A DNA stretch of 64,000 nucleotides. Source: Asterella californica (taxonomy: Eukaryota; Streptophyta; Marchantiopsida; Marchantiales; Aytoniaceae). Under the pieces are notes generated by a model, which was given only the letters and a program-made list of their open reading frames with translations, had not been told where the DNA came from and ran no database searches. The position numbers and the translations under genes were made by a program. Each line of letters opens with the position of its first letter. Positions within the stretch are counted from its first letter, which is position 1. The stretch spans positions 2,666,001 to 2,730,000 of the forward strand of contig JAYKYS010000011.1 in the NCBI GenBank assembly GCA_036924285.1, read 5' to 3'. This document shows, piece by piece, positions 26,298-61,314 of the stretch.

Positions 26298-27670
26298 TGT
26301 TGGAGTGTGATCCGTCTACCTAGGAAAGCGCCGGGCTTCTGGCCGTGGTTGTTTACTCAAGAGGTTGGCTTTCAGATCACAACAGGAGCTATAAACACTC
26401 ACACAGGAGCGTAGGATCCTCTGATATGCTCAAAAAGCGAAATTTAGGTCTCACTGGTAGTAATAGGCTTAAGCGGTGAACTTTGACACTCAAAGAGAGG
26501 AAAACTATGAAGGTTTAGACTTCTAAACTTCCCCTACATGTAAATGAGGCACTACTGAACACACACACGAAGTTTCAGCCTGAGATTGAATTCTAGCACC
26601 GAGATGTTGACAGAAAAGTTCTGAATAAGAGAATTATGGCAATTTCTGGTACCTAGACAGCTATTCAGACATAGAACAGAGAATTGGCTCAATGAATTTC
26701 AAATCTTCTCACAGTATTTGAAGTCTACAGGATGCTGAACATCCCTGTGAAGTTGGGACTCCTGAATGTACACAGAACTCCAGATCTCCTCCTCTGAAGT
26801 CGCTGCTCTAGATTAAGAGCTTTTCAGACCCCCTCTGCTTCAGCGGCCGCCCTGAATTACTCAATTACTCAAATGATACAAAACTTTTTGGACAGTCGTA
26901 GCCCTCCTGACAGTGAACGCAACCACGAAGTTTTGAAGTGATTTCCTCAATTCTGCTGCAATTGGCACCGAAAACCCCAAAATCAACAAAAGTGACGCAG
27001 TTTTGGCACAATCCGAACTTCAATTGGGCATAACTCCTTGTTTATTGATCCAAATCGAGCAAAAATTTCACTGACAGTGCTTGGCACGACGAGCTCTCTC
27101 TTCATGTGTTCTCAGATTTCGAAGATACCTCACCAATTGCTCGAACTCTCCTCTAGAGCTCTGTTTCTAAACTTAGAGTTTTACAAAAGACAAAAATGGA
27201 CCAATGGGAGTTCATAGCTCCACTTGACTGTCCTTTTGTGCCTTAAACTACCTGGTAACTTATCTACACTCATAGGCTACCACGTCAAGCCCCCTAGAGT
27301 GCCAGCGTAAAACTTAAACTACCTAAAATGACATATAGCCCTGAAAAATAACTTAAATTAGCTAGAAAGCGTGCATGGGCGACAAGTAAGTACAACCCAT
27401 GAGCTCAAACCCCTATCAGCATGGAAACCCTAAGTTATGTACATTGAACATCATAGACAAGTAAGAAGTCACTTGCACAAGCGCACAAATGCTTGAACAA
27501 GATAACTAACATACTATCAGCCTACTAGGACTCAAAATAGTATTAACACCGTATGCAAAGGTGTCAAACATATATATAAAGGACTAGAAGTAATATGAGC
27601 TAACTTCTAGAACTACCAAACCTAAGCGTCGGAGTAGAAGTCAAGCATGTAGCCGCCAAATGACGCGACA
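26298..27670 (-). repeat. El1 3' LTR
   Basis: 1373 bp, the same length as the partner at 33631-35003. Visible differences include TGTTGG versus TGTCGG at the left end, GGCCGTGG versus GGCTGTGG, TTCATGTG versus TTCCTGTG, and AAATGACG versus AAATGGCG. Confidence 0.96.
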
Positions 27671-27718: not shown

Positions 27719-29647
27719 TCAAGACTCTTCAGCTTCAGCTTCAAATTCATCTTCAACCTCCATTGAGTCTTCAGCTTCATCCTCAGTAAGCTCTGCAATG
27801 TTCTGGTCGTCCCCTCTCCTTCTAAAGAGCTTGATTCTCTTCCCTGCGACTGGTATCTTGAGCACTGCACCATCTAACTCTCTCAAAGAGTATGTGGCAT
27901 TATCATAAACTTCTAACACCACATAAGGTCCGAACCATCTCTTGGAAAACTTTCTGATAGCGCTATGCTGATTATCAAGACTACTATCATAGACTAACAC
28001 CCAATCACCTTCCTTAACTAGTTTGGGTCGTAATCTATGCGTTCTATCAAATCTGCCTTTGTTTCTCTCTCTAGCAGTCTTTAACCTTTCCACAGCTTTG
28101 GCAACATCCTCAGGTCTTCGTTCTAACTGCTGGATCCTTAATGCAAGAAGATCCTCCGTACTTCTACCATCTTCCCATGGCAAAACATTCCAAGTAGGCA
28201 CAACCTCCTCAATCGGCATCACAGGTTTTTGCCCTAATATCAACTCTGCTGGCATGTAACCTGTAACGGTACTATGAGTTGTACGATCTGCCCACAAAGC
28301 AAATGGTAGCAGTCTAGGCCATTCATGGATCTTACCCTTGCAAGCTTTTACCAAAGCTTTGATGATTGACGGATGACCTCGTTCGCTCTTGCCATTCCCT
28401 TCAGGATTGTAAGCTGTGGTTAACGCCAACTTGATTCCCAATCGTTTGAAGAACTCAACTGCTTCGTGTGAATCCAGCTCACCCCTATCTGCAGTGATCT
28501 TTCCCACACACCCATACCTACAAATAACATCTTCAAGTAGAAAGCGACAGACACTAGCAGTGGTCTTCGTCCTCAAGGCACGGCCTTCGACTTGGTTAGA
28601 TAGATCTTCTCTAGCCAAGACTAGATACCTCATTTGTCCAAGTCCAAATGGCATAGTTACCAGATCAACTACCCATTTATAATGAATGGCTAAAGGATAA
28701 GTAGGATGTAATCCATCACGATGGCGTACATTGGAGTACATCTGGCAAGGTATACAAGATGAAACAAACTGTACTACATCCTTATACATACCCTTCCACC
28801 AATACTTTTCCTTCATCTTGGCAAATGTAGCCCAAACTCCTCTATGACTAGCCCATAAACTCTCATGGAACTCCTTGATCAGCTTCTGCTGCAATTCCAA
28901 GTCACATACCACCCGCTGCGGTATACCTCCTTGTAGCTTAGGGCGCTTCCATAGATGTCCTCCATGTAAAAAGTACCCATAAGCTGTTCTACGGATTCTC
29001 TTGAAATCTGCATCAGACCAGCCTTCTTGCCTTTCCAGTGAACTCAAATAGCGCCCAAGATCCAACCACTCGCCATCATACACAGTTTCCTCAAAAAACT
29101 CCAACGGGGCTGCAAAACAGCTTCTATCTCTTCTAGCAAGAGCACTAGAATAGAACTCTGTTCCCACATCCTCCTGATCATCTATCATTTCTTTCTCATC
29201 GTAATACCTAGCCCTTGATAACATATCTGCCACAGGATTGTCCTTCCCTGCAATATGTCTAAACTCTGGGTTCAAGGACTTGATATATGCTATCCACCTC
29301 AACATAGCAATATCTGGAGTTGTACAGCTAGTGATCATTCCCAAGAGAGGTAAACAATATGTCTCCACAACCACAGGTGCTCCTATCAAGTATTCCTTAT
29401 CACTCTTCATCGCAGTAACTACTCCCCATAGCTCTCTCTTGACCTGAGGGTAGTCTCTTTGCCGTGAACTTAATACCTTAGCACCAAAACGCACCACATA
29501 TCTATTTCCATCCTCATCGTCTTGTCCTACAGCCCATCCAATGCCAATAGGACTAGTATCAACAGTAAGGATAACAGATCTGCCCAACTCATATGTTACC
29601 TTCCGTAGAGTTGGTGGTGAAGCCAAAAGATCCTTCACTTTCGTCAC
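27719..29647 (-). CDS. pol: El1 pol, 3' part: RNase H and integrase
   Basis: Continues the frame of the reverse transcriptase after one TAA (29666-29668). The RNase H segment has TVDTS (Asp30) and KREL (Glu72), but the third acidic position reads ETYCLPL where El2 has ETDCLPL, so Asp97 is Tyr (codon 29357-29359). The integrase zinc finger is H261-X6-H268-X29-C298-X2-C301; the catalytic core has Asp328, Asp387 in ITADRGELD and Glu422 in KSERGHP. A GPY/F-type module follows (KRWFGPYVV), then an acidic tail. The 642-residue frame is otherwise open. Integrase motifs look complete; RNase H activity is doubtful. Confidence 0.93.
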   Translation of the reverse strand: MTKVKDLLASPPTLRKVTYELGRSVILTVDTSPIGIGWAVGQDDEDGNRYVVRFGAKVLSSRQRDYPQVKRELWGVVTAMKSDKEYLIGAPVVVETYCLPLLGMITSCTTPDIAMLRWIAYIKSLNPEFRHIAGKDNPVADMLSRARYYDEKEMIDDQEDVGTEFYSSALARRDRSCFAAPLEFFEETVYDGEWLDLGRYLSSLERQEGWSDADFKRIRRTAYGYFLHGGHLWKRPKLQGGIPQRVVCDLELQQKLIKEFHESLWASHRGVWATFAKMKEKYWWKGMYKDVVQFVSSCIPCQMYSNVRHRDGLHPTYPLAIHYKWVVDLVTMPFGLGQMRYLVLAREDLSNQVEGRALRTKTTASVCRFLLEDVICRYGCVGKITADRGELDSHEAVEFFKRLGIKLALTTAYNPEGNGKSERGHPSIIKALVKACKGKIHEWPRLLPFALWADRTTHSTVTGYMPAELILGQKPVMPIEEVVPTWNVLPWEDGRSTEDLLALRIQQLERRPEDVAKAVERLKTARERNKGRFDRTHRLRPKLVKEGDWVLVYDSSLDNQHSAIRKFSKRWFGPYVVLEVYDNATYSLRELDGAVLKIPVAGKRIKLFRRRGDDQNIAELTEDEAEDSMEVEDEFEAEAEES

Positions 29648-29665
29648 AGGCTCGCTTTGCTCCTC

Positions 29666-31224
29666 TTACCACTGAAATCTTTGCCCCTTCCTCAGCAGCT
29701 TGTACAATGGATCTGCTACATGTGCAAAGTGTGGAATCCATATATGATAAAACACACATGCACCCAGAAATCTTCTCACCTCAGTAACCGATCCACACGT
29801 CTCCTTCATCCTTCGGATGGCATCAACCTTGTTTGGACAAGGTTTCCGACCATAAGATCCACACAGATGTCCCACTATTAACACCTCTTGTACTCCAAAT
29901 ACAGACTTGGCTCCTGATAAAGTCAAATGAACCTCCTCCAATCGACTCATTATCTTATCACAGTCAGCTATGTGATCTGCTACAAACTTACGGCACCCCC
30001 TCTGATCTTTTACCTCATTCTTCTCCTCCTCAGCACACCCTTTGATCGGCACATCATCAAGGAATGGCATAGTTTTTTCAAGAATGAAGTCCCTCAAAAC
30101 TTTGTTCATGCCATTCATCATATGTGCTACAGAATTGGTAGCACCTTGCGGTAAAGTGCACATCCTTAGTAACCCCAAAGGTGTCCTCATTGTAGTCAAG
30201 TCTCTACTCTCAGAGGATAATTGAAACTGATCATAACCTGAATATAAGTCCCCCATGGAATAGATAGCACGACCAGCAAAAGCCTCTGCAAACTCGTCTA
30301 CAATAGGTCCTATACCCATATTCCTGATAGTCACCTTGTTAACTGGCTGCATATCTTGAATGAATCTCAAAGCTCCACTCTTCTTTGGAACAGTAAACCA
30401 TCTGCTAGAGTAGGGAGCTATAGATGGTTCCAAGATACCCATTCTAATCCTCTCATTGAGCAAGTCTATCAGCTTTGGTAGATGAGCTCTAGGCACAGGG
30501 ATAGGACGTAGATTCCAAGGCACATGCGGTATAGTAAAGATTACCATAGGTGCAATTACACTTGGATCTACACATCCTACTTCATGTGACTCAAATGCAA
30601 ACGCCTTACCATGCCTAGATAGCATCTCCCTGAAGCTCTTCTTCTCTTGCTCGGTAAGAAATCCATCACCTCCAATCCTCAGCTCCTTCAGTGTTGTTTC
30701 TGTGAACTGGTGCCCAATTCTTCTCGGTCCTCTGAGCGTCGGCTCTCGTGCAGCTTGCTCCATCTTCTTATTGTAATCGAGTGGTAAAGACAAAGCCACT
30801 GGTTTGACTTTCTTTGCCACTGACTTGTACTTGGTCTCCACATACACCTCTTGCCGATCTATAAACTTATCAATTACATCATAAAGCTCCTTGGAGCTCA
30901 CTCTCACCACTCTATCTACATCATCTATAGAACTTTCTACTATAGATTTCAACTCCCCTATAGTATCTACCAAATACCGCTCTTCAAACACTCCAGATAT
31001 GTATTCATCTCCTGCTAACTCACCACTGTTCCACAAAGACTGCTGTACATGCTTCACATGTTGTCTCTCACACCTCTTCAGATTCTCAACCTTCCTATAA
31101 CACACTGATCCACATGATGTCAACCCTAAGAAGCTAGTGGATAAAGCTTCCTGCTCTACTGGATCAGCCGAGAATCCTAGCTCTACTGTACCGTTGAAGT
31201 CTCGCTCTTCAATGGTACTCTGCC
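29666..31224 (-). CDS. pol: El1 pol, 5' part: reverse transcriptase, in the -1 frame relative to gag
   Basis: There is no ATG at its start; the frame is open back to the GGGTTTT heptamer in the gag-protease overlap, so expression by frameshifting is inferred. Counting from the TTG at 31123, RT motifs are RWFTVPKKSGALRF at about 241-254, GDLYSGYDQF (Asp292), LPQGATNS at about 324-331 and FLDD at 354-357 (FLDD for the usual YxDD). The connection domain ends in a TAA at 29666-29668 just after FQW, where El2 reads on. That stop removes RNase H and integrase unless read through or complemented in trans. Confidence 0.92.
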
Positions 31225-31231
31225 AAAACCC
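31169..31231 (-). promoter_or_regulatory. El1 -1 ribosomal frameshift signal: GGGTTTT plus H-type pseudoknot
   Basis: The heptamer (31231-31225, minus strand) sits as G GGT TTT in the gag-protease frame, the canonical X XXY YYZ phase. A 6-nt spacer follows, then stem 1 GTACCATTGAAG (31218-31207) with CTTCAACGGTAC (31199-31188), 11 of 12 pairs. The 7-nt loop contains CGAGA (31204-31200), complementary to TCTCG at 31173-31169 after a 14-nt connector. The gag stop lies within the structure and the -1 frame is open through it. Seen in sequence; function inferred. Confidence 0.85.
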
Positions 31232-33483
31232 CTAGACTCTCTAAACTCCTGAGTAATCTTAGGTAGTGGACGGTCTCTCAAGCTATCACGATTCCTCTCA
31301 TGTTCTGCAGCAACGGTCAAAAACTGAATAGCTCTTCTGCCATCTCTACTACGTATCCTATCATAAGCTGAACCATCATCCATAACTTGTGTCTCCATTC
31401 TAACAGCAGTAATGTAAGGCTGCCCTAGAATGATAGGATAGGTTGACATGTCTTGCACAAAGAAATTCTGAACATCACTGATGTCACCCACAGTTACCTT
31501 GATGTTGAGACAAGCACCATAAAGTTCTCCCCTCTGGTTGTTGGCAGCACGGATAAGCCATCCATGGTCGGTGTCTATGGGCCACCTCCCACGCTTGTAC
31601 AACTCCTTAGACATCAGATTAATCTCTGAGCCGTGATCAATCAACGCCACCACAGGTTCCTCTAGATCTCCCAGCTTCAGCAAGGTCTCTGTGGTTGCTC
31701 TTGCCCAATGGTTATGAGAGTAATGGCTCTTCTGCGATGCTTCCACCTCATCTTCAAACCTCACGTGCTGATCTGATCTTCCCTCTGATACTTGAGAGCA
31801 GTAACCAGCAATCTCATCTTCTTCATCATCCGACAGTTTGGTCCTTAGAGCATTAAGCGTAGCTGCTTCACCCAAAATCTGACGTTTCCTCTTGATGATA
31901 TCTATGATAACCTCATGGAACTCACGCTTTGCAATCCCAAGAATCTCACCCAAGGTAAACTCAACCTTCCCATTCAAGATACGATTCTCTAACACCTGCT
32001 TCAAGTCTGTAGCAATCTCAATGTCAGACTGAAGTTTATATGCAGGCATCTTACCCTTCTCCTTGCTTCTCTCCTTCTCCTTTGGTGTTGTAGGTGGTAG
32101 ATCCTCCATAGTTTCCTCCCGAGTAGGTGTTGTCTCCTGCCTTGCCTCTGGTCTAGCCCTTTCACTCCTTGTAGCAGGTCGTTTGGCTGTAGAAGCCTCA
32201 CCTGCATCCTCCCTCCTGCGTTTTTCTTCTAGTACAGCTTCATGTTGACTTCTTGCAACATAAGCATGCACTGACATAGTATCCACAGGATCATTCCATC
32301 CTGTAGCTTCTCGAATTGAGTTGCCAACCCTTCGTAGCACATCCTTGTCTAGCTCTGTTCTAGCTACGGACCGCACTACATCAGACCACAACTCAGTAGT
32401 CCCTTTCTCTCTCTCCATCTCCACTTTCACTCCACATGTAGCAGCATTCACAAGAGAAACAGCATGTGATGCTGATATCTCATTCACAAGCCTCTTCATA
32501 CCACCCTTGCCAAAGTTGGTTCCCAACATCATCCCAGTCTCTCTCAGATGGATCTTACCATCTTTGAAGAAGATCAGATCCTTCCTCAATGCATCTGAAA
32601 ACTCTCCACAATCTCTCCTTACATGGTCTAGGCTATCACACCATATACAACGATGAACAAAGCCTTCTCTCATCTGAGGTCTCTGCATAGCAGGCTGTAC
32701 ATTCTGCTCCTTCTCTTCTAACCTAGTGAGCTTAAGCTTAAGCTCCTTCATACCCTTAATCAACTCATCAAGCGGTGAGTCTTCCTCTCTAGCAATTACC
32801 AAAGCGGGCTTAGTAGGCAACTGCTTGACAGGAATTATCAGAGGTGCTGCTTCACTTACCACCACCTTGTCCCTTCTTCTCTGTCTCTTGGTCAGCAAAG
32901 AAACAGCCTCTTCGACCTCCTTCCAATCAGTCTTCAATCCTCTCTCCTCACTCTTGTCTTCCAGCAACAGCTCAAGCTTCTCCTGAATAGTCACGTCCGC
33001 TGCTTGTAGGAAAAGCTCGGTCTTCTCCACCTCTAGTGTAAGCTTCTCTGTCCTAGAAAGCTGAGCATACTGACGATCAAACTCACTTAACAGCTCATTT
33101 ACAGACAAACCTTTGTTAGGCTTCACCACCCACTCCAAGAACGTTCTCTTGGTCACCCTCTCTGAATCTTCAGTGTAGTACTCCTCCTTCAAAGCTCGCA
33201 TAAAGCTCTCCCAACTCTGTCCTTGCTGCTGCTTGAGCTCCTTCACACGCACACGAATCTCAGGGACAACAGCAAGTTCAAAGTTCTCCACCATCTCCTT
33301 CTCAGGTACCTTGTTCACCTCCATCTCCCTAGCATAATATCGCACGTACTTGGAAATATCTGTACCCTTGAACTGGTCCATCTGATGCACCACAGATTGC
33401 AACGCCTTGGTTGCTAACACCTCCTTCCTCTCTGTGCTCTGCTGCTGCTGCATAAATATGTGAAAAGCTTGGAACATCTTCAT
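31183..33483 (-). CDS. gag-pro: El1 gag-protease polyprotein
   Basis: First in-frame ATG is at 33483; the frame is open a little further upstream. The N-terminal half is a charged capsid-like region (ISKYVRYYAREMEV, ERVTKRTFLEWVV). The zinc knuckle CIWCDSLDHVRRDC fits CX2CX4HX4C. After a basic/acidic linker comes the aspartic protease with active-site block ALIDHGSEIN and later PIILGQPYITA. Asp-His-Gly replaces the usual Asp-Ser/Thr-Gly, but El2 has the same residue, so it is probably natural in this lineage. No internal stops; this protein could still be made. Confidence 0.93.
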   Translation of the reverse strand: MKMFQAFHIFMQQQQSTERKEVLATKALQSVVHQMDQFKGTDISKYVRYYAREMEVNKVPEKEMVENFELAVVPEIRVRVKELKQQQGQSWESFMRALKEEYYTEDSERVTKRTFLEWVVKPNKGLSVNELLSEFDRQYAQLSRTEKLTLEVEKTELFLQAADVTIQEKLELLLEDKSEERGLKTDWKEVEEAVSLLTKRQRRRDKVVVSEAAPLIIPVKQLPTKPALVIAREEDSPLDELIKGMKELKLKLTRLEEKEQNVQPAMQRPQMREGFVHRCIWCDSLDHVRRDCGEFSDALRKDLIFFKDGKIHLRETGMMLGTNFGKGGMKRLVNEISASHAVSLVNAATCGVKVEMEREKGTTELWSDVVRSVARTELDKDVLRRVGNSIREATGWNDPVDTMSVHAYVARSQHEAVLEEKRRREDAGEASTAKRPATRSERARPEARQETTPTREETMEDLPPTTPKEKERSKEKGKMPAYKLQSDIEIATDLKQVLENRILNGKVEFTLGEILGIAKREFHEVIIDIIKRKRQILGEAATLNALRTKLSDDEEDEIAGYCSQVSEGRSDQHVRFEDEVEASQKSHYSHNHWARATTETLLKLGDLEEPVVALIDHGSEINLMSKELYKRGRWPIDTDHGWLIRAANNQRGELYGACLNIKVTVGDISDVQNFFVQDMSTYPIILGQPYITAVRMETQVMDDGSAYDRIRSRDGRRAIQFLTVAAEHERNRDSLRDRPLPKITQEFRESRGFGRVPLKSETSTVQ

Positions 33484-33603
33484 CGTAGCAGCATCCAACT
33501 GAGCAGGTTGCTGAGCAGCAACAGCACCTCCACTTGATGATCCTTGATGGCCATGATATCTGATCCTGTAACACTCTCAAGAAAACTCCCACCCTAGGTG
33601 TTT

Positions 33604-33630: not shown

Positions 33631-35003
33631 TGTCGGAGTGTGATCCGTCTACCTAGGAAAGCGCCGGGCTTCTGGCTGTGGTTGTTTACTCAAGAGGTTG
33701 GCTTTCAGATCACAACAGGAGCTATAAACACTCACACAGGAGCGTAGGATCCTCTGATATGCTCAAAAAGCGAAATTTAGGTCTCACTGGTAGTAATAGG
33801 CTTAAGCGGTGAACTTTGACACTCAAAGAGAGGAAAACTATGAAGGTTTAGACTTCTAAACTTCCCCTACATGTAAATGAGGCACTACTGAACACACACA
33901 CGAAGTTTCAGCCTGAGATTGAATTCTAGCACCGAGATGTTGACAGAAAAGTTCTGAATAAGAGAATTATGGCAATTTCTGGTACCTAGACAGCTATTCA
34001 GACATAGAACAGAGAATTGGCTCAATGAATTTCAAATCTTCTCACAGTATTTGAAGTCTACAGGATGCTGAACATCCCTGTGAAGTTGGGACTCCTGAAT
34101 GTACACAGAACTCCAGATCTCCTCCTCTGAAGTCGCTGCTCTAGATTAAGAGCTTTTCAGACCCCCTCTGCTTCAGCGGCCGCCCTGAATTACTCAATTA
34201 CTCAAATGATACAAAACTTTTTGGACAGTCGTAGCCCTCCTGACAGTGAACGCAACCACGAAGTTTTGAAGTGATTTCCTCAATTCTGCTGCAATTGGCA
34301 CCGAAAACCCCAAAATCAACAAAAGTGACGCAGTTTTGGCACAATCCGAACTTCAATTGGGCATAACTCCTTGTTTATTGATCCAAATCGAGCAAAAATT
34401 TCACTGACAGTGCTTGGCACGACGAGCTCTCTCTTCCTGTGTTCTCAGATTTCGAAGATACCTCACCAATTGCTCGAACTCTCCTCTAGAGCTCTGTTTC
34501 TAAACTTAGAGTTTTACAAAAGACAAAAATGGACCAATGGGAGTTCATAGCTCCACTTGACTGTCCTTTTGTGCCTTAAACTACCTGGTAACTTATCTAC
34601 ACTCATAGGCTACCACGTCAAGCCCCCTAGAGTGCCAGCGTAAAACTTAAACTACCTAAAATGACATATAGCCCTGAAAAATAACTTAAATTAGCTAGAA
34701 AGCGTGCATGGGCGACAAGTAAGTACAACCCATGAGCTCAAACCCCTATCAGCATGGAAACCCTAAGTTATGTACATTGAACATCATAGACAAGTAAGAA
34801 GTCACTTGCACAAGCGCACAAATGCTTGAACAAGATAACTAACATACTATCAGCCTACTAGGACTCAAAATAGTATTAACACCGTATGCAAAGGTGTCAA
34901 ACATATATATAAAGGACTAGAAGTAATATGAGCTAACTTCTAGAACTACCAAACCTAAGCGTCGGAGTAGAAGTCAAGCATGTAGCCGCCAAATGGCGCG
35001 ACA
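33631..35003 (-). repeat. El1 5' LTR
   Basis: 1373 bp. In the element's own sense it starts TGTCGCGCCATTTGG and ends CTCCGACA. Flanked outside by ACGA (35004-35007). Confidence 0.96.
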
Positions 35004-36999: not shown

Positions 37000-37010
37000 T
37001 CGCTAGATTC

Positions 37011-38911: not shown

Positions 38912-38916
38912 CTCTC

Positions 38917-46925: not shown

Positions 46926-49412
46926 TGTCGAGCTGAGAGTCTTTCTTGGGGAGGGCGGACCTCCTGACTGTGATCGATCAGAGAAAAATGACCAGAAAAG
47001 AAAATAGGTTGCTGCTGGCGATGTGATCTCAAAACACTGCTCCTTGTGCTCACCAATTACAAAAACAAGCACTCAAACACACCCTGGGTACACACATAGG
47101 TCTCTCAAGATTCAATTAACTTTATTACAGTGTCGTCTGCACCACCAATTTCTCCAACTGTATAGAAAATCTCTCTCTTCCTCTCCTGCGCACCTGTCTT
47201 CACCCGTCAAGCCAAAAGTCTACCCAGTACGTCTCAATCTGAACCTAATAGAGAAATTCGGACCCCTGAATCTTATTCCTCTCCTTGCCCCAACTGAAAC
47301 TCTCAGAAATCTTATCCAACGTCGATCAAAAGTCCCCTGTAGATTTCCAAGCGATCTCTCAATAGAACTGTCTCCTGAGAGTAATTTCTCCCCAGAACAG
47401 TTTATTTAAACAACGTCTAAGCCTAAAAATCCTGCCTCTCTCTCTTACGATGCTCTCCCAATTCAATCTGTCAGCAATTTGATCTTCCCCCAGCTTCTTA
47501 GCTTCTCCTGCGTATCACGCTTCCGCTCTCTCAGAAAACCTTCCTTTGCAAACTGTCCTCGATCCCAAGTCGCCGCAGGTAAATAACCTAAAAGTTAAGG
47601 CCTCCCTTTAAGCTGCCCCCCTGCTGTCCTTATAAGCGCAGTCACTTCTCAGAAGCAGGGCCTTAGCTAAGTTGCCCCCCTCTTAAACTCTAATTCTCCT
47701 CCTTCCGCAGTAATCTTCCGCTTCAAGCTTCTGTTGTAATCTTCCGCTTCCACTGTAATCTTCCGCTTTAGCTGTAATATTCTGCTTCAAGCTTCCGCGG
47801 TAATCTTCCGCTTCCGCTGTAGTTTTCCGCTTCCGCTGTAATATTCTGCTTCAAGCTTCCGCGATAATCTTCCGCTTCCGCTGTAATATTCTGCTTCAAG
47901 CTTCCGCGATAATCTTCCGCTTCCGCTATAGTTTTCCGCTTCCGCGGTAATCTTCCGCTTCCGCTGTAATATTCCGATTCAAGCTTCCGCGGTAATCTTC
48001 CGCTTCCGCTGTAGTTTTCCGCTTCAAGCTTCCGCGGTAATCTTCCGCTTCCGCTATAGTTTCCGCTTCAAGCTTCCGCGGTAATCTTCCGCTTCCGCTG
48101 TAGTTTTCCGCTTCCGCTGTAATATTCCGCTTCAAGCTTCCGCGGTAATCTTCCGCTTCCGCTGTAGTTTTCCGCTTCAAGCTTCCGCGGTAATCTTCCG
48201 CTTCCGCTATAGTTTTCCGCTTCCGCTGTAATATTCCGATTCAAGCTTCCGCGGTAATCTTCCGCTTCCGCTGTAGTTTTCCGCTTCAAGCTTTCGCGGT
48301 AATCTTCCGCTTCCGCTGTAGTTTTCCGCTTCCGCTGTAATATTCCGCTTCAAGCTTCCGCGGTAATCTTCTGCTTCCGCTGTAGTTTTCCGTTGTAATC
48401 TTCCGCTTCCGCTGTAATCTTCCGCTTCCGCTGTAATCTTCCGCTTCAGTTTTCCGTTGTAATCTTCCGCTTCCACTATAATCTTTCGCTTTAATTTTAA
48501 AGCCTCATCTAAAGCTGTTCCTCTGCTGTCCTTATACGTACATAATAATCAGCAAAAGTTTTCCGTGCCCTCGATGCCATCTTGATGCCACCCTGAATAT
48601 ACTACAAGCCATCCAATGTAGGCCGAAGCCCCAACACTTATGAGGCCGCCCCACAGGGCTTACAGCCCCCCCATATGCGCACCAGGTATCTCCCATAGTA
48701 TATTCAGGATGGCATGCGGAGGCTTAGGCCAGGAAGCCCACGATTAAAGGAGATACCGGTCTCCCGCCCCTAGATATGCAGGACGTAGCTGCATATCCAA
48801 CATAGACTCCCTTCCAGGAGGCCAACATGCCGGAATAGGAACCAGAGGCCAGGGGGGATTGATCCTGAGACCACTTCCCTCCTAGGCAAGCGCCCTATCA
48901 CTGGGATGGCCTTTGGTTCCGTTCAAGAAGGTAAAAACTTTTGTACACATGTTTTCCTGAAGAAATTTTCCTGTAAAGTCTTTACTAGCCTTTCCTACGC
49001 TAACTTCTCTATACAACTCCGTTTTTAATGAACAAGGAGTCAAAACTATAGTATTCATGAGCACCTACACACCCATGCTATCAGATTCTGAGTTCGAGTC
49101 ACGAGCCAGAATCGACTGATTTCCCTCTTTCACATATTTCACAGCCTAAAACTCGTACTAACTATTGCTTAAAACACTTTCTGTCAAAACTAGAAGCATG
49201 AGGCCGCTCTCCTCGTCGAGCTTTGCATTCTGACGTCTTTCGACTCCCTTAGGGGTGATATTCCAACCCAAGCTAGGGGGCAGCTTGTCAAGCATAGCCC
49301 CAGCTTAGCTCCTGCCTAGCTTGTTAAGCTGCAGGGCAGCTTCCTTTACACAATATAGAAAAAAGTCTCTCTGCAATACTTTTCACTGTATAGACCTATG
49401 TACAATACGACA
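46926..49412 (-). repeat. El2 3' LTR (2487 bp)
   Basis: Matches 55711-57698 end to end apart from the tandem repeat region. It includes a long T/C-rich repeat block at 47700-48490. Confidence 0.95.
47700..48490. repeat. Tandem repeat in El2 3' LTR, long allele
   Basis: Variants of TTCCGCGGTAATCTTCCGC and TTCCGCTGTAGTTTTCCGC in higher-order units of about 60-65 bp bounded by TTCAAGC. Translations rich in AEAEDYRGSLKRK on the minus strand are repeat artefacts. Confidence 0.95.
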
Positions 49413-49440
49413 TTCACCCCCTCCAAACCTGCACATCCTC
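49413..49440 (-). other. El2 polypurine tract
   Basis: Minus strand TTTGGAGGGGGTGAA directly precedes the 3' LTR, with GAGGATGTGCAGGTT upstream as in El1. Confidence 0.8.
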
Positions 49441-49457
49441 TGGTATGTGCCAATCCG

Positions 49458-52400
49458 TCACCGATCCTCGTGGTCCTCCGAATCGTCCTCGCTCTCTTCG
49501 ACCGTCTCAGAAAAGTCTTCATTTAGTCCTGTCTGCTCTGAACCTAAGAACTCAGCTAGCTCCACAGTCTCCCCTCTCTTCTTGAATAACTTCACTCGTT
49601 TCCCTGCAACTGGAAGCCTTAAAGACGTGCCATCTAGCTCTTGCAAGGAATAGGTAGCATTCTGATGTACATCTGAGACAAGGTAAGGGCCAAACCACCT
49701 TCTCGAAAACTTTCGAACTGTAGAGTGTTGGTTCTCCAATGTGCTGTCGTATACCAACACCCAGTCCCCAACTTGTATCGGTTTTGGTCGTAGTCGGTGA
49801 GTCTTATCAAACCTCTCCTTGTTCCCAAGTCGAGCCGCCTTCAACCGTCGTTGCGCTTCAGCAAGATCCTCCTCTCTACATTCTAGCTGTCTAATTCGTA
49901 GTGAGAGAAGTTGCACACGATTCATATTGTCTTCCCATGGCAAGGTAGCCCAAGTAGGAAAGTCTTCTTCTGCTGGCATCATCGGTTTCTGTCCTAACAT
50001 TAACTCAACAGGCATATATCATGTAGTAGAACAATGAGTTGTTCTATTTGCCCATAGAGCAAAAGGGAGTAACCTAGGCCACTCTCTATGCTTACCATCA
50101 CACGCCTTCACCAAAGCCTGAACTATCGATGGATGTCCTCGCTCACTCTTGCCAATCCCCTCTGGATTCATCGCAGTAGTAAGCTTGAGCTTCACACCAT
50201 ATCGAGCAAAAAACTCTTTCGCTTCCGTACCACGTAGTTCTCCCCTATCTGCCCGTAGCCTTCCTACAGACCCATATCTACAGATAATATCCTCAAGAAC
50301 AAACTTACATATCCCTTCTGTGGTCTTCGTCCTCAAAGCTCGTCCTTCTACAAAGTTGGAAAGATCCTCACGAGCCAAAACCAAATATCGCATGCCCCAT
50401 AACCCCAGAGGCATTACCACCAAGTCGAGAACCCACTGGAAGTGAATGCAAGGCGGATAAGTTGGCACGAGACCGTCCCTATACCGGATCTTTGAGTAGA
50501 ACTGACAATGCAAGCAAGAACTGACGTAGTTCATCACATCCTGATACAGACCTTTCCACCAATACCTTTCCTTCAGCTTGACGTAGGTAGCCCAAATCCC
50601 TCGATGTCCGGCCCATAAGGTATCATGGAACTCTTTCATTAGTTGCTGCTTAGTCTGCAGATCGTCCACTACTCGTATGAACATCCCATCTCTCCTCTGT
50701 GGCCGTCTCCAAAGATACCCATCATGCAGAAGATAGTTGTAAGCTTGTTTCCTTATCTCTCTGAACTCTACTTTGCTCCACCTCTCTTGCCTCTCCAACA
50801 AGCTCAGATAATACCCTATGTCACGAAGTCTACCTGTGTAAAGCTCTTCTCTAAACATCAACGGCTCCAAGTTCGTACCCCGTCGATTAACCTGACACTG
50901 AGCATCCTTCCTCTCCTCTTCCTCAGCTTCTGAAATCATGACATCCTCGTCTACAAATCGAGCTCTTGATAACATATCTGCGACCATATTCTCCTTTCCT
51001 TTTATATGCTTCAGCTCTGGATTCAAGCTTCTAATATAGGCAATCCAACGTAACATCGCTATGTCTGGCGTGCTACAGTTGGATATCATGCCTAGTAGAG
51101 GTAGACAATCCGTCTCTAAGGCTACATGAGCACCAATCAGAAACTCACGGTCTGTCTTCATCGCTGTCACCGCTCCTCACAATTCACGCTTCACCTGAGG
51201 ATAATCTCGTTGCCTGTCTGTCAAGATCCTAGCTCCGAACCTAGAGGTAAACCGCAATCCATCCGCATCATCTTGACCTATCGCCCAGCCAATTGCCTTT
51301 GGGCTAGTATCTACTGTGACAATGACAGGTCTCCCACATCCGTAGTCTACTCTTCTCAAAACAGGCGGAGACTGTAGAGCCTCCTTCAATCTATTCATAG
51401 CTTCTCGATGGACTGAAGTCCATATAAACCTCTTACCCTTCCTCAATAATGCATACAAAGGCTCAGCAACATGAGCATAATGAGGGATGGATAAACGATA
51501 AAATACACAAGCACCTAGAAAACGTCGAACCTCTGTGATATTCCTACAGTCTGCCATCCTAGCTATGGCTTCAACCTTCTCGGGGTTTGGTCGCCTTCCA
51601 AAAGCACCACACAGATGTCCAACCACTAAAATCTCAGACACACCAAACTTGGACTTAGCTCCTGACAGGGTGAGATGTACCTCCTCCAGACGAGTCAAGA
51701 TATGTTCTACATCCCTGATATGGTCTGCAACAAACCTTCTACATCCATTCGCAAGTACTGCTTCATCCTTGTCTTCAACCGCGCAACCCTTTATAGGAAT
51801 ATCATCTAGAAATGGAATGGTAACATCAGGCACAAACTCCCTTAGTACCTTATGCATCGCATTCTGCATATGAGCCACCGAGTTCGTCGCTCCTTGTGGA
51901 AGAGTACACATCCGCATCAATCCCAGGGGCGTACGCATAGTAGTTAAATCTCTACTCTCCACAGCCAGCTGGAACTGATCATAACCAGAATATAGATCTC
52001 CTATCGAATAAATAGCTCTCCCTGCAAATGCCTCTGCTACCTCTTCAATCACAGGACCCGTCCCAACGTTACGTATGGTTACGTTATTCGCAGGCTGTAA
52101 GTCTTGAATAAAACGCAAAGCTCCTGACTTCTTGGGTACAGTGAACCACCTGCTAGAATATGGCCCCATAGACGGCTCAAGTATCCCCATTTGTACCTTC
52201 TCTTTCAACAACTCGATGAGCTTAGGCAACAAGGCACGAGGAACTGGGATCGGTTTCAAGTCCCAAGGCACATGAGGGATTGTGAATATAACCATAGGCG
52301 CTATAACGTTTGGGTCCACACAACCTATCTCCTCTGCTGAAAAAGAGAATGCTTTACCATGCTTCACTATCATCTGCTCAAACACGGTTTTCTCGTCCTC

Positions 52401-53074
52401 AGTCAAGAAATCACCTCTTCCTATCTGGAGCTCCTTCAATGTCTTCTCAGTAAACTGGTGTCCTACTCGCCTATGATCACGCAAAATAGGCTCAGTCCCC
52501 ACTAGTTGTACTTGCTGCTGGGAGTTAGCAGGTAGTTGAGCTGCTACCGGTCTTACCTTTCTCAGTACAGATTTGTACTTCGCATGGACATCTGCTTCCT
52601 GAGGGAGTGCACACCAACAACTTGCTTCTCTCCCTTCATTATTCTGCATTGGATGAGGAAAGAACTGCACGTATGTAGCAATCTCCTCATATATGCGTCG
52701 AGAGTGGATAGGGATCACCGCCACACTATTTTTCCCTTCCACCAATCCACTCACACTATCTAACCAACCGACAACTGACTGTACAGACATAAACTCTTCA
52801 AACAACCCAGAAACCACTTCGTCTTCAGGTAGAACTCCTACACGCCACAACTCTGATACCTGTTTCACCACCCATCTTTTTGTATTTTTCTCCATATCTT
52901 CAACTCTTGTAAATCGACTCCACCCATCTGCCTCAAACATCAGCAATCCAGACTGCCAACTCTGTACACCACACTTGTCTCCAGACCTCTGTACATGTCT
53001 CGCTTCCAACTCTGACGGGACCTCAACAGTAGGTTCTTCACCCCTGTCTTCCCGCTCTACAGGAGTGGACTGTG
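49458..53074 (-). pseudogene. pol: El2 pol: reverse transcriptase, RNase H, integrase (two stops)
   Basis: One frame, open from the GGGTTTT heptamer, read on the minus strand. RT: RWFTVPKKSGALRF, GDLYSGYDQFQL, LPQGATNS, FLDD. RNase H: TVDTS, KREL, ETDCLPL, all three acidic residues present. Integrase: HDTLWAGHRGIW with CLHC, then RADRGELRG and KSERGHP, and the C-terminal RRWFGPYLV. A TGA at 51177-51179 follows KREL where El1 has Trp; another TGA at 50019-50021 falls where El1 has the Gly of TGYMP. The first removes most of RNase H and integrase. El2 has an extra cysteine-containing insert (SCWCAL) before the RT compared with El1. Confidence 0.93.
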
Positions 53075-53081
53075 AAAACCC
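53016..53081 (-). promoter_or_regulatory. El2 -1 ribosomal frameshift signal: GGGTTTT plus H-type pseudoknot
   Basis: The heptamer (53081-53075) lies as G GGT TTT in the gag frame (lysine codon AAG before). The spacer is 7 nt, then stem 1 CACTCCTGT (53067-53059) with ACAGGGGTG (53047-53039), nine pairs including one G-U. Loop bases CGGGA (53054-53050) pair with TCCCG (53020-53016) after an 18-nt connector. The gag stop (53057-53059) is inside stem 1 and the -1 frame is open. Layout equals El1 but the stem sequences differ. Confidence 0.85.
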
Positions 53082-55648
53082 TTACATCTCTTCGTCTGAG
53101 AATTTCTAAGGGTTTGTCGGTTCCGTTCATGTCTTGAACGAACCGTTAAAAACTGTACTGAGTACTTGTCATCAGGACTCCGAACTCTGGCATAATGAGA
53201 CCCATCGTTCATCACCTTTGTCTCCATTCGAACAGCGGTGATGTATGGTTGGCCCAGTATGACAGGATAGGAGGCAGACGACTGTACAAAGAAATGCTGA
53301 TCAACCTCTACATCTCCAATCTTCACACGCATATTAGGACAAGCTCCGTATAACTCACCCTTCTGATTATTTGCTGCACGGAGTACCCAACCATGATTCC
53401 TTTCGATTGGCCACTGCCCCTTTTCATACACCTCCTTGGAAATGATGTTGATCTCCGACCCGTGATCCACAAGTGCAGGTACTGGCTCAGAAAGTCCCCC
53501 AAGTCGAACCTGCGTCTCTGTTGTCGCTCTTGCCCAGTGCTTCTCCTTGAAATCGCTGTCTGCGCTTGACCTATCCTCTTCAAACTCTTCATCTTCGTTC
53601 TCAATAACAGCTGGACCAGCAACCCATGCCTCATACTTATCATCTCTGAACTGATCAACACCAATAGCATCTACTGCTCCAACCATCTGACTACTTACTT
53701 GTTCAGTCAATACCTGTCTCTTCCTCTTCATGATGTCTATTATCAACTCATGAAACTCTCTCTTTGCGATACCAAGCACTTCACGAAGAGTAAACTCAAC
53801 TCTAGCATCCAAAATGCGTTGCTCTAGAACAGCACGCAAGTCTGTTGTTGTCTCGATGTCTGCCGCTAACTTGTAAGCTGGAGCTTTCCCTTTCTCCTGT
53901 GCTGTAAACCTCTTTCCCCGTACTCTATCCGCAGCAGTAGGCTCCTGTGGCAAATCCTGTACACCTTCCATAGGATCTACTGCAGGTGGTGGTGCTGTAG
54001 AGGTAGAGGGTATATCCTCTGCAGCAGGAGACCTTCCAGTTGGTATAGTTGGTGATGGTTCTGCTGCCCTCCTTCTTGTAACTCTTCGACGATCACTGTC
54101 CTCTGGTATCCCTGCATCTAAATCAGAAGCGTCCCTTCTTCTTTTGTCTTCGATCATGGCATCTTGTTCACCACTCGTCTCTAAAAACGCTCGAATAGAA
54201 ATTGCATCTATTGGGTCCCTCCATCCAGTAGCTCTCCTAATGCTTTCTGCACCTCTCTTCATCATTTCAACTAAAACCTCATTAGCCTGCTCAACCATAG
54301 TTGGATTAGAGCGCACCTCAACCTTCCCAGTATACACATCAGCCTCTGCAGAACCCGCAGTCATCGCTGTAGTATTCACGCCAGTAAGTGCTGGAAGAGA
54401 ACTCCTCATTCCTCCTCTCCCAAAATATGTGTTCAGAGGCTGCCCCGTGGCAGTTAAATACAACCTGTTATTCTGATAGTTGACTACGCCCTCTCGCAAG
54501 GCAACCGCCAAGTCTTGACAGTCTCCTCTGAGATGATCTGGGCTGTCGCACCAAATACATCTCCTTGTAAAGGTTCCTCCTACAGGTCGAGCACCTGGCG
54601 CAACTGGTCGTTGGTCTCTCCTCAAGTCTGCCATCTCAACCCTCAAATCTCTCAGCTGTTGAGTGAGCTCTTCTATCAAGTTATTCTGATTTCGGTTCTC
54701 AGCAGGTCGCTGTTGCTGTCTAGGTCCTCTCTGTGCTGGGATAGGTGCTGCAGGCGCTTGAGCAATCACTTGGGGAACCACTATGGGTGCTTGAGGAATC
54801 ACAATAGGTGCCTGAGGTATTGTAGGAGGAGCTACATGAACTTGAGGAGCTACTCTCTGCTGCTCTGGTAAGGTTTCTAGCTGTAACACCATCCTACCAC
54901 GACGTTGCCTAGCAAGGGTAGATACTGCTTCTTCCACTCTCCTCCAATCAGATGTAACTCCCCCTTCAGTCCCTCGATCAGCCAACATGAAACAAAGCCT
55001 ATCTGCTGTGAACTCATCCAGAGCCCCCAAGAACAACTCCGTCTTCCTAGCATCCAGAGTCAACTTCTCTAGACCAGAAAGCTGAGAGTACCTCTTCTCA
55101 AACTCCCGAATTATCTCATTCAATCCCATGGAACGTCCAGGCTGACGCTCTATCCAGTCCATGAGAGTTCTTCTGGTGACTCTTTCAGAGTCCTCTTCTA
55201 AAAACTCTTCTCTCAATGCACGCTCAAACAAAGTCCACCCACCTAGATGTCTTCTCTGTAAATTTCTCACCTTCTCTCTCAGTTCAGGGACAACAGTCAA
55301 CTCAAAGCTTAGAATTACCTCAACTTCAGGTGCCCTGACCAACTCCATCTCACCCACATACTCCCGCAGGTATCTAGTAACATCTCTTCCATCAAACCGT
55401 CCACACCGACCAACAATTGCTTGTAATGCTCTTGTGGACTTCTGCTCAGCTCCCCCAATTGCAGGCTGCTGCTGAATCAAGGCAGCCAACGCCTGAAGAA
55501 TCTGAGACGTGTCTACAGCAGGCGGTGCTGTTGCTGTTGGAACCACCGTAGGCCCTCCTTGAGAGCCAATTCCATCTTGACCAGGAGTCCCTTGAACATG
55601 AGCACCTTGAGCAGCGGCTACACCCTGTACGGCAGCACTGTGATCCAT
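53057..55648 (-). CDS. gag-pro: El2 gag-protease polyprotein
   Basis: 863 residues from an ATG 62 bp after the 5' LTR (MDHSAAVQGV). A capsid-like region with DVTRYLREYVGEMEL and ERVTRRTLMDWIERQPGR parallels El1. A Pro/Gln/Val-rich linker follows (APPTIPQAPIVIPQ), then zinc knuckle CIWCDSPDHLRGDC (CX2CX4HX4C) and a long charged linker. The protease block is PALVDHGSEINI with PVILGQPYITA later, again Asp-His-Gly. No internal stop. Confidence 0.94.
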   Translation of the reverse strand: MDHSAAVQGVAAAQGAHVQGTPGQDGIGSQGGPTVVPTATAPPAVDTSQILQALAALIQQQPAIGGAEQKSTRALQAIVGRCGRFDGRDVTRYLREYVGEMELVRAPEVEVILSFELTVVPELREKVRNLQRRHLGGWTLFERALREEFLEEDSERVTRRTLMDWIERQPGRSMGLNEIIREFEKRYSQLSGLEKLTLDARKTELFLGALDEFTADRLCFMLADRGTEGGVTSDWRRVEEAVSTLARQRRGRMVLQLETLPEQQRVAPQVHVAPPTIPQAPIVIPQAPIVVPQVIAQAPAAPIPAQRGPRQQQRPAENRNQNNLIEELTQQLRDLRVEMADLRRDQRPVAPGARPVGGTFTRRCIWCDSPDHLRGDCQDLAVALREGVVNYQNNRLYLTATGQPLNTYFGRGGMRSSLPALTGVNTTAMTAGSAEADVYTGKVEVRSNPTMVEQANEVLVEMMKRGAESIRRATGWRDPIDAISIRAFLETSGEQDAMIEDKRRRDASDLDAGIPEDSDRRRVTRRRAAEPSPTIPTGRSPAAEDIPSTSTAPPPAVDPMEGVQDLPQEPTAADRVRGKRFTAQEKGKAPAYKLAADIETTTDLRAVLEQRILDARVEFTLREVLGIAKREFHELIIDIMKRKRQVLTEQVSSQMVGAVDAIGVDQFRDDKYEAWVAGPAVIENEDEEFEEDRSSADSDFKEKHWARATTETQVRLGGLSEPVPALVDHGSEINIISKEVYEKGQWPIERNHGWVLRAANNQKGELYGACPNMRVKIGDVEVDQHFFVQSSASYPVILGQPYITAVRMETKVMNDGSHYARVRSPDDKYSVQFLTVRSRHERNRQTLRNSQTKRCKGFHSPLL

Positions 55649-55689
55649 CTTCTCAATTCAGTCAATTCTCCAAATCAATCACCCCAATA

Positions 55690-55710
55690 TCTCTCAGTAG
55701 AAGCACCAGA
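55690..55710 (-). other. El2 probable primer-binding site
   Basis: Two bases after the 5' LTR the minus strand reads TGGTGCTTCTACTGAG, starting with TGG as expected for pairing with a tRNA CCA end. The tRNA is not assigned. Confidence 0.5.
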
Positions 55711-57698
55711 TGTCGAGTTAAGAGTCTTTCTTGGGGAGGGCGGACCTCCTGACTGTGATCGATCAGAGAAAAATGACCAGAAAAGAAAATAGGTTGCTGC
55801 TGGCGATGTGATCTCAAAACACTGCTCCTTGTGCTCACCAATTACAAAAACAAGCACTCAAACACACCCTGGGTACACACATAGGTCTCTCAAGATTCAA
55901 TTAACTTTATTACAGTGTCGTCTGCACCACCAATTTCTCCAACTGTATAGAAAATCTCTCTCTTCCTCTCCTGCGCACCTGTCTTCACCCGTCAAGCCAA
56001 AAGTCTACCCAGTACGTCTCAATCTGAACCTAATAGAGAAATTCGGACCCCTGAATCTTATTCCTCTCCTTGCCCCAACTGAAACTCTCAGAAATCTTAT
56101 CCAACGTCGATCAAAAGTCCCCTGTAGATTTCCAAGCGATCTCTCAATAGAACTGTCTCCTGAGAGTAATTTCTCCCCAGAACAGTTTATTTAAACAACG
56201 TCTAAGCCTAAAAATCCTGCCTCTCTCTCTTACGATGCTCTCCCAATTCAATCTGTCAGCAATTTGATCTTCCCCCAGCTTCTTAGCTTCTCCTGCGTAT
56301 CCCGCTTCCGCTCTCTCAGAAAACCTTCCTTTGCAAACTGTCCTCGATCCCAAGTCGCCGCAGGTAAATAACCTAAAAGTTAAGGCCTCCCTTTAAGCTG
56401 CCCCCCTGCTGTCCTTATAAGCGCAGTCACTTCTCAGAAGCAGGGCCTTAGCTAAGTTGCCCCCCTCTTAAACTCTAATTCTCCTCCTTCCGCAGTAATC
56501 TTCCGCTTCAAGCTTCTGTTGTAATCTTCCGCTTCCACTGTAATCTTCCGCTTCCACTGTAATCTTCCGCTTCAGCTGTAATATTCTGCTTCAAGCTTCC
56601 GCGGTAATCTTCCGCTTCTGCTGTAGTTTTCCGCTTCCGCTGTAATATTCCGCTTCAAGCTTCCGCGGTAATCTTCTGCTTCCGCTGTAGTTTTCCGTTG
56701 TAATCTTCCGCTTCCGCTGTAATCTTCCGCTTCAGTTTTCCGTTGTAATCTTCCGCTTCCACTATAATCTTTCGCTTTAATTTTAAAGCCTCATCTAAAG
56801 CTGTTCCTCTGCTGTCCTTATGCGTACATAATAATCAGCAAAAGTTTTCCGTGCCCTCGATGCCATCTTGATGCCACCCTGAATATACTACAAGCCATCC
56901 AATGTAGGCCGAAGCCCCAACACTTATGAGGCCGCCCCACAGGGCTTACAGCCCCCCCATATGCGCACCAGGTATCTCCCATAGTATATTCAGGATGGCA
57001 TGCGGAGGCTTAGGCCAGGAAGCCCACGATTAAGGGAGATACCGGTCTCCCGCCCCTAGATATGCAGGACGTAGCTGCATATCCAACATAGACTCCCTTC
57101 CAGGAGGCCAACATGCCGGAATAGGAACCAGAGGCCAGGGGGGATTGACCCTGAGACCACTTCCCTCCTAGGCAGGCGCCCTATCACTGGGATGGCCTTT
57201 GGTTCCGTTCAAGAAGGTAAAAACTTTTGTACACATGTTTTCCTGAAGAAATTTTCCTGTAAAGTCTTTACTAGCCTTTCCTACGCTAACTTCTCTATAC
57301 AACTCCGTTTTTAATGAACAAGGAGTCAAAACTATAGTATTCATGAGCACCTACACACCCATGCTATCAGATTCTGAGTTCGAGTCACGAGCCAGAATCG
57401 ACTGATTTCCCTCTTTCACATATTTCACAGCTTAAAACTCGTACTAACTATTGCTTAAAACACTTTCTGTCAAAACTAGAAGCATGAGGCCGCTCTCCTC
57501 GTCGAGCTTTGCATTCTGACGTCTTTCGACTCCCTTAGGGGTGATATTCCAACCCAAGCTAAGGGGCAGCTTGTCAAGCATAGCCCCAGCTTAGCTCCTG
57601 CCTAGCTTGTTAAGCTGCAGGGCAGCTTCCTTTACACAATATAGAAAAAAGTCTCTCTGCAATACTTTTCACTGTATAGACCTATGTACAATACGACA
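55711..57698 (-). repeat. El2 5' LTR (1988 bp)
   Basis: Partner of 46926-49412. Its tandem repeat block (about 56490-56790) is about 500 bp shorter. Flanked outside by GCGG. Confidence 0.95.
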
Positions 57699-58571: not shown

Positions 58572-58868
58572 GTAATCTGCATTGAGATATTACCATCTCC
58601 AACACTACAACAAAGATTACTCACAAATGATCAAGCCAAACTCGCTCTAAACGCGAAGAGAATCCGAGTTACACTCAACTAGACTATCCACCATAGCCTG
58701 GAGCTTGAAGGCTCAACTCGAAGAACTAAGGCCTCCAAGCCCTACCTGCGAAGTATACTCCTAGTGGGCTCTCCCTCCCAACTCGCCCTAACGGCACTAA
58801 CGGCCTTATCGGGATGCGTCACTTCATACTCGGTCAACCTAGCCAAGGTGCCAAACTGACATGACAGC
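58572..58868 (-). repeat. Isolated copy of the 297-bp spacer of the C-family terminal module
   Basis: Closely similar to 35980-36276 in C1 but without the flanking 106-bp units. Separated from the C2 terminal module by 145 bp of other sequence. Confidence 0.85.
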
Positions 58869-59013
58869 AATAAGAAACAACAGTATTGGTTCTCTTCAAG
58901 ACGATGGACTTCATACATGAGATGTCATATAAACATGTGTGAACCAAGAGAGTAATCTTTTGTTAAGTTTGCTTTCTATTACTTCGAGCACAACAAAGAT
59001 GAACAGACAACAA

Positions 59014-59522
59014 TATCTTGCGCATATACATCGCTACACAACATACATTGCTGTCAAAGTTACACTACACACACACACAACACGTGGACGATGTCATACA
59101 CATACACAAGTGTACCACAATATGATAAACGATATGTATTCGTTCCACCATACCAACGGACATTAAACAATCATTAAAGTCGAGCCAAATCCACTTTGTG
59201 CTCGTAGAGACTCCAGATTGTACTCACAAAGACTATCCACCATAGCTAGGAGCTTGAAGGCTCAACTTGAAGAACTAGGGCCTCTAAGCCCTACCTGCGA
59301 AGTATATCTCTAGTGGGTCATCCCAAGAACTCATCCTAACGGCACTAACGGTCCTACCGGGATTAGCCACTTCGCACTCGACCAACCTAGCCGAGGTGCT
59401 AAACTGACGTGATAGGTGTCGTGCGCATACACATCGCTGCACAACATACATCGCTTTCAAAGATACACCACACACACACACAACACATGGACGATGTCAT
59501 ACACATACACAAGTGTACCACA
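59014..59522 (-). repeat. C2 terminal 509-bp module (106-297-106)
   Basis: 106-bp units at 59014-59119 and 59417-59522, spacer 59120-59416. Lengths are identical to C1 although the spacer has diverged. The minus strand TTAGGGAGACGAT before it is polypurine-like. Confidence 0.78.
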
Positions 59523-59689
59523 ATCGTCTCCCTAATTGGCGGTTAGGTCCCTCTGACTCCAGATAGCTCCATATACCAACTACGTGATATACACCTTCAT
59601 GGGTGCAAGGATCAAGAGGCCGGGTGCTATATCGCCTCATCGTTAGTCACCCGTCTGTAATCCATACCACGCAAAGATCTAATCGGCTA

Positions 59690-60960: not shown

Positions 60961-61314
60961 TATCCGTACTCTACCATCATCCCATACTCGAAGTACATGT
61001 CATCTTTCTCATGAAAATCTCTTCGCTCGTTGAACAACACGATCTCGCTCCTTGGTACTTATTGTGTCTATCACTATGTCAGTACGTAGATACTTCATTA
61101 CACTCACATCGTCATGGATATCTCGCTGGTCTGATACACCATCTCCATCCTCAAGATCTGGAGACTCATCATCTATTTTCTGATCAGAGAAAGATACGAC
61201 TTGGCACTTCATACTAGAGTACATGACCAACACACAAAGAAAGGCTGATGCATGCCATCCTGGCTCTATCTCCTCATCAACCTCGTCATGCCATCGAGCC
61301 CCAGTCTGATCTTG

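Follow-up and report, generated by a model that had tools for sequence, protein, structure and literature searches.

The closest described systems are the -1 frameshift signals of retroviruses and of animal Ty3/gypsy derivatives such as PEG10, which combine an in-phase heptamer of the X XXY YYZ type, a short spacer and an H-type pseudoknot with a downstream frame in -1. The gag-pol junctions of two retrotransposons of Asterella californica, El1 and El2, share this layout. In avian leukosis virus the protease lies in the gag frame and reverse transcriptase (RT) follows the shift, and El1 and El2 likewise have their protease in the gag frame and RT past the shift. They differ from retroviruses and PEG10 in that the host is a land plant, that the heptamers of these and related families are G GGU UUU and G GAU UUU/UUC, and that five families carry a stop codon directly after the heptamer.

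Plant RNA viruses offer a second comparison. The sections of PMC13098196 cited here describe umbraviruses as having mainly GGAUUUU 0 or 3 nt before a stop codon, with some GGGUUUU; for group 2 umbra-like viruses they give mainly GGGUUUU, 6 or 12 nt before it. The PEMV heptamer G_GAU_UUU is discussed in the cited part of PMC5009743. Umbraviruses and umbra-like viruses share with our elements the heptamers, the plant hosts and downstream structures with loop pairings (PMC13098196, same sections), but they are RNA viruses expressing a polymerase, the likeness is one of design only, and the stop codons of El1 and El2 lie farther from the heptamer (42 and 18 nt).

Split frames are also described for plant LTR elements. 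A 2003 survey, as related in the cited part of PMC5009743, found two types, both with pol in +1, whereas pol is in -1 in the El1/El2 family. For some plant groups the cited part of PMC6317226 reports a pair of ORFs, with Gag or Gag-PROT encoded by the first, and names no recoding signal. The Phygy clade prefers NCGN for insertion (PMC6317226, same part), and the flanking repeats ACGA of El1 and GCGG of El2 fit NCGN, in these two elements only (PMC6317226, PMC6911290, parts cited). A chromodomain that was not found and coding sequence that fills nearly all of the El1 interior are further likenesses to Phygy, beside which we set the elements on the basis of these features. The cited parts of PMC6317226 and PMC6911290 describe no recoding signal for this clade, and our searches of the open-licence literature turned up no plant LTR element with a -1 pseudoknot signal.

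The gag-pol junctions of El2 and El1

The window is the whole 64,000-nt stretch of contig JAYKYS010000011.1 that was analysed, and all coordinates refer to it. The features of El2, in order of transcription, are as follows.

46926-57698, minus strand: whole El2 element, a Ty3/gypsy LTR retrotransposon
55711..57698, minus strand: 5' LTR, about 500 bp shorter than the 3' LTR, with internal tandem repeats
53057..55648, minus strand: gag-protease (gag-PR) frame, 863 aa, with a DUF4100 match and the protease motif DHGSEIN recognised by eye
53075..53081, minus strand: slippery heptamer GGGTTTT, divided by the gag frame as G GGT TTT (codons GGT TTT)
53068..53074, minus strand: spacer, 7 nt
53059..53067, minus strand: stem 1, 5' arm CACTCCTGT
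53057..53059, minus strand: gag-PR stop codon TAG, within the pseudoknot
53050..53054, minus strand: stem 2, 5' arm CGGGA, inside the stem 1 loop
53039..53047, minus strand: stem 1, 3' arm ACAGGGGTG
53016..53020, minus strand: stem 2, 3' arm TCCCG, starting 18 nt past stem 1
49461..53081, minus strand: pol (-1) frame with RT, RNase H and integrase
46926..49412, minus strand: 3' LTR

The candidate signal comprises 66 nt (53081-53016, minus strand) in the order heptamer, spacer, stem 1 with its loop, and stem 2. CACTCCTGT and ACAGGGGTG form nine pairs around a loop of 11 nt; a sequence-only reading of this DNA had already proposed the 7-nt spacer and the 9-pair stem, and both are present, with T.G as one of the nine pairs. 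The pol frame is -1 relative to gag-PR and opens exactly at the heptamer, with a TAA immediately upstream, and the 0-frame stop ends 18 nt past the heptamer. Two in-frame stops interrupt pol in the window's copy of El2 (51177-51179 and 50019-50021). The same order of parts recurs in El1 at 31231-31169.

26298-35003, minus strand: whole El1 element, a Ty3/gypsy LTR retrotransposon
33631..35003, minus strand: 5' LTR
31186..33576, minus strand: gag-PR open frame
31225..31231, minus strand: slippery heptamer GGGTTTT, read G GGT TTT, in the same phase as in El2
31207..31218, minus strand: stem 1, 5' arm GTACCATTGAAG
31200..31204, minus strand: stem 2, 5' arm CGAGA
31188..31199, minus strand: stem 1, 3' arm CTTCAACGGTAC
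31169..31173, minus strand: stem 2, 3' arm TCTCG
27722..31231, minus strand: pol (-1) frame with RT, RNase H and integrase and one in-frame stop (29666-29668)
26298..27670, minus strand: 3' LTR

The El1 spacer is 6 nt long, stem 1 (GTACCATTGAAG with CTTCAACGGTAC) spans 12 positions with a single A.C mismatch, and the 0-frame stop ends 42 nt past the heptamer. One El1 copy, L110, has A-T where the window's El1 has this mismatch. GGGTTTT is present in 32 of 35 El1 copies. The frames are established, as is the phase of the heptamer, which the sequence-only reading had given as the same in both elements.

El1 and El2 are Ty3/gypsy LTR retrotransposons by their LTR pairs, 4-bp duplications and gag-PR-RT-RNase H-integrase order. 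In El1, 1370 of the 1374 positions of block 26297-27670 match the other LTR; in El2 the LTR blocks match at 856 of 864 positions and at 999 of 1006. ACGA stands just outside both ends of El1, and GCGG just outside both ends of El2. Short tandem repeats within the El2 LTRs (47637-48556 and 56441-56829) have unequal copy numbers, which gives the difference of about 500 bp in LTR length. Pfam finds RVT_1, RNase H, H2C2 and rve in that order in both elements, although rve falls short of its curated cut-off. The gag part of both matches DUF4100, a domain on which we found nothing in the open-licence literature. In the integrase ends of El1, El2 and the contigs L003 and L005 no chromodomain is listed at E values up to 1, and a Tf2-1 SH3-like domain matches weakly, short of its cut-off. 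Named protein relatives come from Riccia, Adiantum and Physcomitrium, which by itself would suggest a land plant, probably a bryophyte, as host. Rfam at gathering scores yielded no match in the whole window. The window also holds a second Ty3/gypsy type on the minus strand, in two copies about 90% alike (35874-39620 and 58575-61938), with a PHD finger (Pfam 1.9e-11) in an open frame past the integrase.

We consider it very probable that the 66 nt of El2 form a gag-pol recoding signal, at which programmed -1 ribosomal frameshifting would take place at the heptamer with the help of the downstream H-type pseudoknot. Most ribosomes would end Gag-protease at the 0-frame stop, making Gag-PR the main product. 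A minority, held by the pseudoknot with Gly (GGU) in the P site and Phe (UUU) in the A site, would slip one base back on G GGU UUU (in sister families on G GAU UUU or G GAU UUC) and go on in the -1 frame to give Gag-PR-RT-RNase H-integrase. Slippage in the plant cell, stimulation by the pseudoknot and the Gag:Pol ratio as its purpose are suggested by likeness to established -1 sites.

Pseudoknots in further families

We scored 13 junctions, six from the window's genome (El1-El4, El5a and El5b) and seven from MAGs (F1a, F1b, F2, F3, F4, F5 and M6; six in one MAG and one in a second). El3, El4 and the two subtypes of El5 came from searches of the window's own genome (a 516.7-Mb assembly), in which loose first searches gave 1976, 21327 and 11749 candidate places and only 40, 58 and 150 were scored. 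Alignment of the gag-PR protein in the GTDB collection found six MAG contigs, five in a Trichormus MAG and one in a Synechococcales MAG. These contigs (L001-L005 and L006) are plant retrotransposon sequences binned in cyanobacterial MAGs and thus contamination, in the Trichormus MAG perhaps from the fern Azolla. Scans of viral contigs with gag and with pol confirmed no relative, a scan of phage records gave no match, and three plasmid matches at 24-32% identity were not used.

The heptamer is G GGT TTT in El1, El2 and El5 and G GAT TTT/TTC in El3, El4, F1a, F1b, F3-F5 and M6, and a stop follows it directly in El3, F3, F4, F5 and M6. F2 has a GGTTTTTT run in place of a plain heptamer and does not plainly show the X XXY YYZ pattern. 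At the GGTTTTTT run of F2 (L002:2490-2520) the pol frame is +1/-2, one T off the -1 layout; a T may have been lost, the assembly may be wrong, or the shift may be one of -2. Leaving aside F2, whose frame differs, and El4 and El5, which were found later, pol is in -1 and overlaps gag by 13-79 nt in all nine junctions measured (El1-El3, F1a, F1b, F3-F5 and M6). F1a has a pol stop at residue 59 past the shift site. Two loci judged decayed were kept out of the 13: L017, where 3 of 300 shuffles reach the score and stem 2 includes wobbles, and L018, which has no convincing structure (113 of 300). L054 was left out too, as its downstream part appeared unrelated by eye.

Our scan combined a stem 1 starting 4-9 nt past the heptamer with a stem 2 between its loop and downstream sequence and took the stacking energy as the score; its ranges were chosen after viewing the El1, El2, El3 and MAG junctions by eye. 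An H-type pseudoknot was found 4-8 nt past the heptamer in 13 of 13 junctions; its stem 1 spans 7-13 positions, its stem 2 has 5-9 pairs and its third loop is 11-22 nt long. Among 2000 dinucleotide shuffles each, the observed score was reached by 5 for El1, 3 for El2 and 0 for El3, and by 0 for F1b, F2, F3, F5 and M6, with F4 (20) and F1a (10; weak stem 2) the weaker junctions. El4, El5a and El5b, found after the ranges had been fixed, fit as well (1, 0 and 3 of 2000). The combined test over the 13 junctions (Fisher 2.8e-24) overstates independence because El5a/El5b and F1a/F1b are close relatives. An earlier run of 500 shuffles gave 0 for El2 and 4 for El1. Within the elements, a scan that covered six of the ten junctions then known found other positions scoring at least as high as the junction at 0 of 6062 in El2, 14 of 5720 in El1 (2 places), 6 of 5546 in F3, 0 of 5399 in F5, 0 of 3706 in M6 and 6 of 5440 in F2. 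The plain nested folding energy is not unusual (z -0.25 for El2 and -1.30 for El1), and the nested fold of El2 contains the CGGGA/UCCCG helix and lacks stem 1; what carries the case is therefore the pseudoknot, together with the comparison of families.

Compensatory change and conservation

The sequence-only reading had pointed to CGGGA/TCCCG in El2 against CGAGA/TCTCG in El1, and the A-to-G change on one strand is indeed matched by T-to-C on the other. One covarying pair in two elements is weak evidence alone; with the additional families the evidence is strong. At the pair in question, the third of stem 2, El4 has A-T like El1, and El3 and El5 have G-C like El2. With loops taken from stem 1 alone, the energies of stem 2 with own partners sum to -155.8, where permutations average -115.2 (sd 10.4). 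This sum is reached by 14 of 200,000 permutations; in the set of the first ten junctions the count was 3 of 200,000. Own partners thus beat swapped ones in the larger set, where a lack of covariation at stem 2 had been named as the outcome that would speak against an RNA element. The El1 loop scores -8.9 with its own arm and -3.6 with that of El2, but foreign arms often pair well, as with the El2 loop and the El5 arm (-17.3, against -13.0 with its own) or the El1 loop and the El4 arm (-12.3 against -8.9). Stem-2 arms are purely Watson-Crick in five of the seven MAG junctions; F2 adds a U.G end pair to Watson-Crick pairs, and F1a has a weak stem 2 with wobble. Single copies depart from this pattern: the 3' arm of the El2 copy L077 is TCTCG as in El1, giving G.U with the El2 loop at the third pair, and the El5 copy L119 has lost a pair adjoining the third.

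Stem 1 aligns without gaps over El2-El5, with 95.4% of cells paired (12 distinct strings, 60 copies) and six of nine pairs changed on both sides. The alignment holds 36 rows from 40 El2 loci and 10 from 11 El3 loci, L115 and L120 having been dropped for indels. When the letters of the 3' arm were shuffled, a procedure that ignores the relatedness of copies, 0 of 2000 shuffles reached this pairing, 1 of 2000 the both-side changes and 19 of 2000 the further pair types; slid partners are 37-68% paired. The El5 subtypes have T-A and C-G at pair 7. The El2 copy L085 carries C19T and G37A, on both sides of pair 6, which becomes U-A and scores as an unbroken stem, while pair 6 is U.G in L101 and C.A in L087. 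Since each of the two changes amounts to C-to-T on one of the strands, decay by deamination is possible for a single copy such as L085. Copies with a broken pair are L087, L119 and L062. Together, these comparisons show that the predicted pairing is kept by compensatory change across families.

The frameshift might be real and yet be stimulated by stem 1 as a plain stem-loop, with stem 2 incidental. Simple hairpins are enough in some known cases of frameshifting, and the stacking energy of stem 1 exceeds that of stem 2 in eight of ten junctions (exceptions F4 and F5). We nevertheless regard a plain stem-loop as improbable, given the preference of the loops for their own downstream arms in the permutations, the 5-7 stem-2 pairs of unrelated sequence in six of seven MAG junctions (F1a being weak) and a third stem-2 pair that is A-T or G-C according to family.

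Copies of the same element were compared as well. Among 29 El1, 40 El2 and 11 El3 copies (L044, which has another heptamer, was left out and scored apart at 0 of 300 shuffles), variable columns in the stems number 0 of 34, 3 of 28 and 4 of 42 (pooled 7 of 104), against 15 of 79, 22 of 85 and 8 of 71 outside stems and heptamer (pooled 45 of 235). One-sided Fisher tests give 0.0018 pooled, 0.003 for El1, 0.07 for El2 and 0.52 for El3, so that in the 11 El3 copies by themselves stem changes are not fewer than elsewhere.

The motif F(L/M/I)TV occurs in 54 of 76 homologous proteins, which end in DF (29), DFxx(M/V)P(L/F) (18, one of them DFRRRPL), FxxSLL (4) or otherwise (3). The ends of 51 of the 54 are compatible with such a shift site and may stand for G GAY TTY or similar, in agreement with the loci whose DNA was compared; the matching residues VPL are encoded by the 5' arm of El1 stem 1. 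The 22 homologues without the motif include P0073-P0076, which are distant (24-38% identical) and have a variant of the motif and other ends.

Could the frame break instead have arisen as the copies decayed, with the pairing due to chance or codon usage? The window copies do carry stops in pol (two in El2, one in El1), L017 and L018 are broken, and L115 and L120 have indels. Coding constraint can account for part of the loop, and Glu-Arg codons of the -1 frame for part of the shared loop sequence GAGCG. Yet the frame break and the heptamer type recur in families of the window's genome and in two MAGs, and with the 51 compatible protein ends and the shuffle and permutation controls they leave decay scarcely credible. 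The proposal, made from El1 and El2, that the frameshift site between gag and pol contains a real RNA element is supported by the pseudoknots in all 13 junctions and by covariation across families. Conserved architecture in the two elements is borne out; to call them independent was slightly generous, as El1 and El2 are related (gag-PR 41% identical).

Expression of pol and wider meaning

Structured RNA can act in packaging, and pol might be expressed by splicing or readthrough, the structure then serving either of these or RNA packaging. In four of seven Riccia gene models gag does continue in the direction of pol, and residues are lacking at the junction or close to it; splicing is reported for Ogre elements (PMC6317226, part cited). 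The missing residues vary by model, however, as if the predictor had bridged a frame break, the gag and pol frames overlap by 13-79 nt, and the structure lies 4-8 nt past an in-phase heptamer at every junction scored (in F2 the pol frame differs). These explanations are in our judgement very unlikely. Since pol is in -1, readthrough of the stop could not reach it. Stop-codon readthrough of the Tca2-like kind needs a pol that continues the gag frame and was rejected, as was +1 frameshifting, known from yeast Ty and the plant types of the 2003 survey: pol is in -1 in nine of nine junctions, with F2 a possible lone exception. The Riccia models concerned are P0024, P0048, P0053 and P0055, and the places of their missing residues differ, as if an intron had been predicted across the frameshift.

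A programmed -1 shift at a pseudoknot thus remains our preferred account of the junctions. More tentatively, and with doubt prevailing, an ancient retrotransposon clade of bryophytes and ferns may have kept a pseudoknot -1 signal from before these lineages parted, the first in plant LTR elements, with G GAU UUU and an immediate stop, its commonest form, being the design of several plant umbraviruses. If this were true, plant ribosomes would favour the G GAU UUU-stop layout whatever genome uses it. For annotators, the junctions are a warning that some Riccia gene models seem to bridge gag and pol. In these elements land plants would offer -1 signals of natural origin, plentiful within a single genome, with families divergent enough to test the rules of pseudoknots and to be compared with plant RNA viruses that share their heptamers beside a stop.
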